Shown: piece after piece, positions 20,242 through 31,158 of the stretch
How the letters are laid out: each line of letters starts with the position of its first letter
How positions within the stretch are numbered: position 1 is the stretch's first letter
Source of the DNA: Candidatus Coprousia avicola
Lineage (GTDB): Bacteria > Actinomycetota > Coriobacteriia > Coriobacteriales > Coriobacteriaceae
Direction: 5' to 3'
Length of the DNA stretch: 43,644 nucleotides
Assembly (NCBI GenBank): GCA_018715125.1
Contig: DVMF01000006.1
Location: 1-43,644, forward strand
Position numbers and translations under genes: made by a program
Notes under the pieces: generated by a model
Told to the model about the DNA's origin: nothing
Databases searched by the model: none
What the model saw: the letters and a program-made list of their open reading frames with translations, nothing else

Positions 20242-20412
20242 CCCGCTGCCGGCATGTGGCTCGAGCGCTCTGGGTCCAGCCATGCGAGGCCTTTGGTTTG
20301 CGCAGCTCAACGTCTCCGCCGGCGTGGACGGTCAGGAGCATGTCATATCGAGGTTTGCCGCACGTCCGAACGAGGTGGATATCGGTCGGGATACGGTGAG
20401 AACCCCTCGGTA

Positions 20413-20427
20413 GAATCAAGGTGATTC
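20413..20427 (+). repeat. Perfect inverted repeat abutting the recA -35
   Basis: GAATCA-AGG-TGATTC is a perfect 6-bp inverted repeat with a 3-base centre that ends one base before the recA -35 hexamer. It could be an operator or activator site, or a small hairpin at the end of the pncC transcript; the following CTTGACGG has no T-run, so termination is unlikely. Confidence 0.45.
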
Positions 20428-20428
20428 C

Positions 20429-20457
20429 TTGACGGCGAACAACCGTTCGTCTATCAT
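20429..20457 (+). promoter_or_regulatory. recA promoter with LexA operator in the spacer
   Basis: TTGACG (20429-20434), a 17-base spacer and TATCAT (20452-20457) form a good promoter. The spacer contains CGAACAACCGTTCG (20436-20449), a perfect match to the Gram-positive/actinobacterial LexA box CGAAC-N4-GTTCG. LexA bound there would cover both the -35 to -10 spacer and RNA polymerase contacts, so recA should be SOS-inducible. Confidence 0.88.
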
Positions 20458-20485: not shown

Positions 20486-21574
<1,089 letters not shown>

Positions 21575-29911: not shown

Positions 29912-30550
29912 TTAAAACCGGCGCATGAGCGCTACGACCTTACCCAGAATGACGGGGTTCTCGGCATAGATGGGCTGCATCGCGTCGTTCTCAGGCTGGA
30001 GCCGCACGCGGCCCTGCTCCTTGTAGAACGTCTTGACGGTCGCCTCGCCATCGATCATGGCGACGATGATCTCACCGTTCATGGCGCTCTTCTGTTCGCG
30101 GACGACGAGGTAGTCCCCGTTAAAGATGCCGGCGTTGATCATGGAGTCGCCGTGGACCTCTAGAACGAAAGAGCACGAGTCGGTCGTGATCTCGGTGGGC
30201 AGCGTAAAGGTATCTTCCACGTTCTGCTCCGCAAGGATGGGCATGCCTGCCGCCACGCGGCCGACAAGAGGGAGCTCGACGGTGTTGCGGTTGGGCGCCT
30301 CCTTGACCTCGGCGAGCTTGACCGACGAGCCGTCCTCGTTGAAAAGCTCGAGCGCACGGGGCTTCGTGGCGTCGCGCTTGATGAGCCCGTGTGCCTCAAG
30401 CGCGGAGAGGTGGGCGTGGACGGTGGAGGGGGAGGAGAGACCAACGGCAGCCGCCATTTCCCTCACGCTTGGCGGATAGCCCTTCTCCTGCTGGTATGCG
30501 CGAATGAAATCATAGATCTGCTGCTGGCGCTTCGTGATCTTGCGAGCCAT
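29912..30550 (-). CDS. lexA: SOS repressor LexA
   Basis: Master repressor of the SOS response, inactivated by RecA-stimulated self-cleavage. The 212-residue protein has an N-terminal winged helix (KITKRQQQIYDFI, GYPPSVREMAAAVGLSSPSTVHAHL split), the Ala-Gly cleavage site at A101-G102 (GRVAAGMPIL), catalytic Ser136 in VHGDSMINAGI and Lys173 in EATVKTFY. The ATG at 30550 gives the standard MARKITKRQQQ start, with AAGGAGG 6 bases upstream; the longer open frame upstream is not coding. Three LexA boxes in the divergent region with the LysM gene indicate autoregulation. Confidence 0.97.
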   Translation of the reverse strand: MARKITKRQQQIYDFIRAYQQEKGYPPSVREMAAAVGLSSPSTVHAHLSALEAHGLIKRDATKPRALELFNEDGSSVKLAEVKEAPNRNTVELPLVGRVAAGMPILAEQNVEDTFTLPTEITTDSCSFVLEVHGDSMINAGIFNGDYLVVREQKSAMNGEIIVAMIDGEATVKTFYKEQGRVRLQPENDAMQPIYAENPVILGKVVALMRRF

Positions 30551-30566
30551 CGATGCCTCCTTAGTA

Positions 30567-30580
30567 CAAACTGCTGTTCG
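30567..30580. promoter_or_regulatory. Degenerate LexA box near the lexA start
   Basis: CAAACTGCTGTTCG differs from CGAAC-N4-GTTCG at one conserved position (A for G). It lies about 17 bases upstream of the lexA ATG, just before its ribosome-binding site, and would block lexA transcription early. Confidence 0.55.
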
Positions 30581-30588
30581 ATTTTCTA

Positions 30589-30618
30589 TTGACAGGAACA
30601 GCTGTTCGTCGATAATAA
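30589..30618 (+). promoter_or_regulatory. Promoter of the LysM suppressor gene with LexA box in the spacer
   Basis: A perfect TTGACA (30589-30594) precedes ATAATA (30612-30617, spacer 17) or TAATAA (30613-30618, spacer 18). The spacer contains GGAACAGCTGTTCG (30595-30608), a LexA box with one deviation in the first base. On the minus strand the same AT-rich block reads TATTAT and could serve as the lexA -10, so the two promoters probably overlap. Confidence 0.75.
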
Positions 30619-30622
30619 TACA

Positions 30623-30636
30623 CGAACACTCGTTCT
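30623..30636. promoter_or_regulatory. LexA box at the divergent promoter region
   Basis: CGAACACTCGTTCT matches CGAAC-N4-GTTC with a deviation only in the last base. It lies 4-5 bases downstream of the plus-strand -10, so it would cover the transcription start of the LysM gene and the upstream part of the lexA promoter. Confidence 0.8.
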
Positions 30637-30705
30637 TTAGCCAGTTTTTTGTCCGCACGGTTCGATATAACCATATCGCAGCACAGTCGGAGAAAGGAAC
30701 GAATC

Positions 30706-31158
30706 ATGACCGCCGTTGAGCATTTGGTGATAGGTAATCTCGCGCTCGCCCCCGTTCGCGAGGAGGTTGCGCCACGGCCCCGCTTAACGGTGATCGAGGG
30801 GCGCGCCGGCGAGCGCCTCCAGGGTCATATGCCCGAGCGCGCTATCGATGTTCGGCGTCACGGCAATGCGCCAACGGTTGTCGCGGCATGCTTTGTCTGC
30901 CTGCTCCTCACGGTATCCCTTGCCATAGGCTGGTCGGTTGTCACGGGGCGCGCAGCCATGGCAGACGAGGCGTTCTCGCATGTCGAGATGGAGGAGGTCG
31001 CGGTTGAGGCGGGTGACTCCCTGTGGACCATCGCGGAACGCCACGCGGTCGACGGTATGACTACGCGCGAGCTAGTCGATCGGCTGAAGGAGCTTAACGG
31101 CACCGGTTCGCAACCGCTTCAGCCCGGCGATGTGCTCATGGTCCCCATCGCCTCTTAA
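30706..31158 (+). CDS. LysM-domain SOS cell-division suppressor (YneA/ChiZ-like)
   Basis: Bitopic protein of 150 residues: a cytoplasmic N-terminal region, one transmembrane helix (about 56-78, PTVVAACFVCLLLTVSLAIG) and an extracytoplasmic LysM domain (98-148: VEAGDSLWTIAERHAV, LKELNGTG, LQPGDVLMVP). Size, topology and divergence from lexA match Bacillus YneA and the actinobacterial Rv2719c/DivS group, which block septation during DNA damage. ATG 30706 has AAAGGA 7 bases upstream. Two LexA boxes lie in its promoter. The N-terminal region of 55 residues is longer than in YneA. lexA-LysM-nrdR is the same order as Rv2720-Rv2719c-Rv2718c of M. tuberculosis. The function is inferred from these features. 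Confidence 0.83.
   Translation: MTAVEHLVIGNLALAPVREEVAPRPRLTVIEGRAGERLQGHMPERAIDVRRHGNAPTVVAACFVCLLLTVSLAIGWSVVTGRAAMADEAFSHVEMEEVAVEAGDSLWTIAERHAVDGMTTRELVDRLKELNGTGSQPLQPGDVLMVPIAS

Follow-up and report, generated by a model that had tools for sequence, protein, structure and literature searches.

A tandem array of seven direct repeats was found upstream of recA in Candidatus Coprousia avicola, and we are highly confident that this array is a conserved feature of the recA promoter region. Judged from the sequence, it probably acts as the activator site of an upstream promoter (P1), which directly precedes the LexA-controlled promoter (P2) of the gene. The window referred to below is the whole stretch of 43,644 nucleotides that was analysed. 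The original prediction had suggested that recA receives a second input besides LexA through a palindrome adjacent to the -35 element; the conserved direct-repeat array, which lies further upstream than the positions given there, speaks in favour of a second input, while the palindrome could not be maintained in this role.

Results

The recA promoter region and the LexA boxes

The elements in front of recA are the following.

20330..20405, + strand: array of seven direct repeats, with units starting at 20330, 20341, 20352, 20363, 20374, 20384 and 20395
20411..20416, + strand: -10 hexamer of P1, TAGAAT, 16 nt past the start of the last array unit
20429..20434, + strand: -35 element of the LexA-controlled promoter P2, TTGACG, read from the sequence
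20436..20449, no strand assigned: LexA box CGAACAACCGTTCG in the P2 spacer, read from the sequence and recurring across the family promoters
20452..20457, + strand: -10 element of P2, TATCAT, read from the sequence
20486..21574, + strand: recA (NCBIfam TIGR02012, 542 bits), with its ATG at 20486

The 17-nt spacer of P2 (20435-20451) contains, as originally predicted, a perfect LexA-type box at 20436-20449, so that a CGAAC-N4-GTTCG operator overlaps the recA promoter. CGAAC-N4-GTTCG is the LexA box type of Gram-positive bacteria and actinobacteria, and the region resembles their SOS systems both in the perfect box of the P2 spacer and in a lexA gene that lies within the window and has boxes of its own. 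Of the 62 family recA upstream regions displayed, nearly all carry a LexA box between the two elements of a promoter of the TTGAC type, with TTGAC or TTGC at the -35 position. P2 is an ordinary LexA-repressed promoter, in which nothing unusual was noticed.

29912..30550, - strand: lexA, the repressor for the recA box (NCBIfam TIGR00498, 231 bits)
30596..30635, no strand assigned: two GAAC-N4-GTTC boxes (30596 and 30624), read from the sequence, between lexA and a divergent yneA-like gene

The lexA gene is thus itself under LexA boxes, and it shares the two boxes with the divergent yneA-like LysM gene (29912-31158 for the pair), whose product scores below the NCBIfam cut-off. LexA-like elements were also seen elsewhere: 8 of the 13 displayed uvrA upstream regions (e.g. 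L268) carry a degenerate CGAAC-N4-GT-N-CG box, the remaining ones have a partial box or none (G004, G005), and a TANACT-like hexamer follows in most of those displayed. In several genomes of family f2 the LexA-type box of recA reads CAAAC-N4-GTTCG.

The upstream promoter P1

The position of the P1 hexamer is strongly restricted. When hexamers were counted in 4-nt bins from 13 to 152 nt before the LexA GAAC, TANNNT was found 25-28 nt before it in 32 of 35 non-redundant promoters of the window's family (f1), with at most 3 in any other bin, and the stricter TANNAT in 25 of 35, with at most 1 in any other bin. The family sample comprised 63 of 65 genomes, without G045 and without G010, whose recA is divided between contigs; the promoter count used 60 genomes, with G037, G035 and G055 set aside, and 35 promoters remained after clustering at 75% identity. 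G035 and G055 also have TANNNT at 26 nt, and G037 has TANNAT at recA. The same placement of the TANNNT hexamer recurs in a second family (f5). The combination of a LexA box with TANNAT at the P1 distance matched in 57 of 65 family genomes; of its 62 matches, 52 are located at recA and oriented like P1, and the control gave 22 matches.

No -35 element is evident for P1, the array occupying that place. With a 22-bp site matrix (array unit plus -10) trained without the genus of the window, 20395-20416 ranks first of 87,246 window positions (17.4 against 14.4 for the next). The register of the last unit was also recovered in f5 with a matrix built from f1: over 36 promoters, not de-duplicated, the mean score was +1.28 at the expected place and -2.2 to -5.8 at offsets of 1-8. 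If transcription from P1 starts 6-8 nt past TAGAAT, its transcript would have the LexA box at approximately +13 to +28. As a separate observation, G068 (L190) and G097 (L194), which have no PafB hit, keep the repeats and carry TTTTAT in place of the TANNNT hexamer.

The direct-repeat array

The units of the recA array follow each other at 11, 11, 11, 11, 10 and 11 bp, with a unit consensus of about kGTCAGAT over 11 bp. In the window's family the array extends over units 0-6, in f5 over units 0-4, i.e. about five. Scanning with the last unit gave peaks approximately every 11 bp in both families (at 0, -11, -22/-21, -33/-32 and -44). The in-phase mean score was +6.6 in 34 f1 promoters, +5.1 in 39 f5 promoters and +9.1 in the 9 promoters without a PafB hit, while the values ranged from -3.6 to -13.1 at a distance of 2 to 5 phases. 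Only in 12 of 34 f1, 15 of 39 f5 and 3 of 9 PafB-less promoters did phase 0 score highest of all 11 phases; neighbouring phases overlap by the tolerance used, and the neighbour of phase 0 carries much of the signal. Chains of at least three units were present in 51 of 85 promoters, against 8 of 85 when the start was shifted out of phase; the anchored counts leave out 10 promoters from outside the family in which no GAAC-N4-GTTC was recognised, among them that of G230, which has no PafB hit. Outside the family, 78 of 176 recA upstream regions were fetched (241 genomes with RecA less the 65 of the family).

An anchor-free test against resampled sequence was significant (p<=0.05) in 24 of 37 f1 promoters, 32 of 50 f5 promoters and 10 of 23 promoters of other Coriobacteriia, leaving 13 of 37 and 18 of 50 non-significant in the two families, and in none of 20 actinobacterial recA loci. 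In the controls, significance was reached in 2 of 27 uvrA upstream regions, in 1 of 40 and 4 of 59 sequences taken from the opposite strand, and in none of 10 pieces of recA coding sequence; the f1 counts of the test and of its controls contain G035 and G055 read on the wrong strand. The unit matrix of the anchor-free tests, their controls, the five-unit scan and the scans of G093 and G003 drew in part on promoters to which it was then applied. Out-of-sample results are the last-unit register and the phase peaks in f5, the actinobacterial unit scan, the scoring of recA and rpsF by means of the shared spacing, and, within the anchor-free test, the counts for actinobacteria and for other Coriobacteriia. 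The recA upstream region of G134 (f2, L232) also gave an array-like score (19.0, p 0.02).

With a unit matrix from f5 only and the spacing shared with the rpsF array described below, the recA array takes rank 1 on both strands of the window (17.0, next 13.3); this 11-11-11-11-10-11 spacing was adopted after the chains had been viewed, and with two spacings close to it recA obtains 16.1 and 17.0. With seven units at strict 11-bp steps the array does not score at recA of the window and fails at rpsF too, and in a drift-tolerant five-unit scan recA of the window stands barely above noise (16.1 against 15.2).

Arrays at other genes

In the window's genome (G000) a second array precedes rpsF, which is followed by ssb (both identities confirmed by Pfam), on a 9-kb piece that also carries a pair of WYL proteins. 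Its seven units have the very same spacing as those of recA, and it is rank 1 in its piece (19.4 against 9.4, with the f5-only matrix and the shared spacing). The rpsF-ssb genes are also preceded by an array in G003, where the last step is irregular.

In G093, a member of f5, 400 kb corresponding to 25% of the genome was scanned: three arrays score at least 23.4, followed by about 15 for the next. No score of at least 18 was reached on either strand of ten simulated 400-kb sequences, and the real 400-kb sequence read backwards gave 17.5 at best. These three arrays precede recA, the UPF0102(yraN)-comM-dprA genes (Pfam) and an orphan ORF of 353 amino acids. The orphan array (L304:6741-7927) has five units and lies downstream of thyA- and folA-like ORFs; the ORF has no Pfam match, its -10 is not evident, and tblastn against the loci collected gave no paralogs. 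Four clean units in register with a -10 were also seen before a 755-aa SpaA/T-Q ester protein of the LPXTG type (L318:10185-12536); this array is weaker and was picked after the fact, and further stretches, scored with drift, are noisier. The orphan ORF and the surface protein are array genes that do not fit competence.

Altogether the element stands at recA and rpsF-ssb in G000 and at recA and comM-dprA in G093, the four genes never being found together under it in one genome. Neither comEC nor comEA nor pilus genes were seen under an array in about a third of G093, which was partly masked and in which their loci were not located.

The palindrome next to the -35 element

Two overlapping inverted repeats lie between the -10 hexamer of P1 and the -35 element of P2.

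20413..20427, no strand assigned: palindrome GAATCA-N3-TGATTC (GAATCAAGGTGATTC), considered a side effect of the P1 -10 and the sequence around it
20416..20432, no strand assigned: second inverted repeat TCAAGG-TGATT-CCTTGA, perfect, overlapping the palindrome, read from the sequence

The palindrome is placed just as described originally: it is perfect and separated by a single C (20428) from TTGACG. In Markov resampling, at least one perfect 6-bp inverted repeat with a spacer of 0-10 occurred in 12% of 65-nt stretches and in 47% of 244-nt intergenic regions; two or more such repeats occurred in 3% of 65-nt stretches, and an exact 6-3-6 repeat in 1.5% of them. The occurrence of the palindrome is only mildly unlikely by chance. 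Allowing up to 2 mismatches, 2 matches were found in the window where 1.15 were expected. The sole copy with 1 mismatch in the genome was discarded; it sits within a glycosyltransferase-like ORF, in the coding frame.

That the palindrome, or the overlapping TCAAG-N7-CTTGA, is the operator of a species- or genus-specific regulator is extremely improbable. Such a reading could draw on the perfect dyad with its low 6-3-6 chance in 65 nt, and on G001, which retains a TCAAGS-N5-SCTTGA dyad with its inner pair altered in a matched way (TCAAGC-TAGCA-GCTTGA). The perfect form is restricted, however, to G000 and G002, which have identical RecA, among the 62 family upstream regions displayed, and the genome has no second perfect copy. 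Of the 247 genomes of the order, 3 carry the looser TCAAG-N7-CTTGAC-LexA pattern, and these belong to a single genus. Moreover, both arms overlap or abut promoter elements, the left one being the end of the P1 -10 TAGAAT and the right one bordering the -35 of P2. The palindrome was rejected as a regulatory element because the dyad is not conserved among the recA upstream regions of relatives, and it looks like a by-product of two interlocked promoters packed together.

Discussion

Candidate regulators of P1

The first candidate regulator of P1 was PafBC, in which case P1 would be a RecA-NDp promoter like P1 of mycobacterial recA, with tTGTCRgtg as its -26 element. We consider this unlikely. 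The mycobacterial consensus, as given in PMC5656591, consists of tTGTCRgtg, 8 nt and TannnT, and the last array unit together with the P1 -10 fits this consensus and spacing (GGTGAGAA-N8-TAGAAT at 20395-20416), the first block being only a partial match to TGTCRGTG. The draft genome furthermore has two adjacent WYL hits on contig 8. For the first protein the PDB matches are chains of 9fnd (E 2e-4) and 7p5x (E 3e-4), which carry the deposited name 'transcriptional regulator-like' and are taken to be PafB; for the second they are 6sj9 PafBC (E 2e-6) and 7p5x PafC (E 6e-4). The matches are weak, none being better than E 2e-6, and neither protein was named by NCBIfam. This tandem of PafB- and PafC-like regulators (L153:3533-5558) is situated close to rpsF-ssb-rplI, and no Pup ligase hit was obtained in the draft genome, which is 96.6% complete. 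In f5 the TANNNT hexamer is in place in 36 of 39 promoters of genomes with a PafB hit compared to 3 of 8 without (Fisher p 0.0017), and counted by genus in 15 of 16 compared to 3 of 7 (p 0.017), where a genome counts as PafB-less if a single PafB query finds nothing in it at E 0.01, fragmentary hits being scored as present. When the -26 block is also required, however, the difference is no longer significant (18 of 39 against 1 of 8, p 0.08), so that in f5 it is the P1 -10 alone that correlates with PafB, the array occurring with and without it. The P1 hexamer is missing in three genomes that do have PafB (G222, G238 and G138), while G056 has the site intact with no WYL hit whatever. The nine promoters of PafB-less genomes keep their repeats in phase, with the high mean already mentioned, and 7 of 8 are individually significant (G126 has p 0.08, and G097 was dropped as near-identical to G068).

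The comparison with actinobacterial loci points in the same direction. The last unit, the 8 nt and TANNNT have the same register as in the mycobacterial RecA-NDp promoter, but the 33 non-redundant actinobacterial NDp promoters have one unit and no array, whereas recA of the Coriobacteriales carries repeats, kept even without a PafB hit. Of 47 actinobacterial loci inspected, 29 have both elements, and in every one of these the NDp site is situated between the SOS box and the gene, with 50 to 143 nt from GAAC to TA, whereas P1 of the Coriobacteriales lies upstream of the LexA box. A wider PafBC regulon was likewise rejected: with 6 matches in the genome against 7 in the control, the strict NDp pattern shows no enrichment, at least 4 of the 6 lie in long open frames, and GTNRR-N10-TANNAT was found in none of 50 uvrA upstream regions, collected from 50 of the 65 family genomes. 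No paper on PafBC in Coriobacteria was found. The element is periodic and independent of PafB; since the array is equally strong in PafB-less promoters and the actinobacterial loci are single-unit, PafBC was dropped as its likely binder. It is also quite unlikely that the array is a structural element which strengthens P1 or P2 with no dedicated activator, by UP-element-like alpha-CTD contacts or by phased bending. Its helical phasing and promoter-adjacent position would suit such a role, but the conserved word is the GC-containing kGTCAGA and not A-tracts, 25 of 27 uvrA upstream regions show no significant array, and arrays are rare in the 400 kb of G093. Highly improbable is a phosphate-type (PhoB/PhoP) box, which would place recA in a phosphate or envelope-stress regulon: the 11-bp TGTCA direct repeats and the 16-nt distance to the -10 resemble the Pho boxes of E. 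coli, yet among the array genes found, recA, rpsF-ssb and comM-dprA are recombination genes, and neither the orphan ORF nor the surface protein is known to belong to phosphate metabolism.

A model with two interlocked promoters

The arrangement that we propose instead consists of two interlocked recA promoters, P2 repressed by LexA and P1 just upstream of it with the array replacing its -35 element. Direct repeats of 11 bp in place of the -35 are typical of OmpR/PhoB-like and SARP activators, and the array shares with such sites (Pho boxes, AfsR/SARP) the head-to-tail 11-bp units that end by the -10 and a similar distance to it. Unlike them, it has five to seven units and stands at recombination genes, and each of the two arrays in the window's genome contains one step of 10 bp. 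The predicted activator would be an OmpR/PhoB-like winged-helix protein, copies of which could bind the array head to tail along a single side of the helix. At the last unit, which begins 16 bp upstream of the -10, it could touch region 4 of sigma. Since the LexA box falls within the first 30 nt of the P1 transcript, and since the order of the actinobacterial loci is reversed with P1 before the box, LexA would hinder P1 as well. Taken as a whole, this model of interlocked P1 and P2 with an array-bound OmpR/PhoB-like activator of recombination genes has, on the present sequence comparisons, about an even chance of being correct.

The activator is predicted to switch on recA, ssb, comM and dprA, which would form a set for the integration of incoming single-stranded DNA and might represent the late regulon of natural transformation. 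The products of these genes handle incoming single strands during transformation, and the rpsF-ssbA operon of Bacillus subtilis is competence-induced. The late competence regulons under ComK boxes, the ComX cin-box and CRP-S have recA, ssb, dprA and comM among their targets as well; the array element, by contrast, is unlike all of these sites. A transformation or recombination regulon under the candidate activator would be our assessment, with a confidence that ranges from tentative to evenly balanced. Rather more doubtful than probable is the most specific form of the proposal, a transformation programme of the Coriobacteriia in which an activator bound to five to seven 11-bp repeats drives recA, ssb, comM and dprA, with the recA promoter threaded through the LexA operator. 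Among the literature matches listed there was nothing on competence or transformation in Coriobacteriia, and those on SOS in Eggerthella and on 11-bp repeats with recA or dprA held nothing on the array.

Coriobacteriia are hard to manipulate genetically, and a cis element common to recA, ssb and dprA offers a bait for the regulator and a reporter for the inducing condition. The recA region itself is a compact case in which a putative activator array and a repressor box are combined within one promoter. If the proposed transformation programme is real, DNA damage signalling and competence would meet within a single 130-bp stretch at recA.
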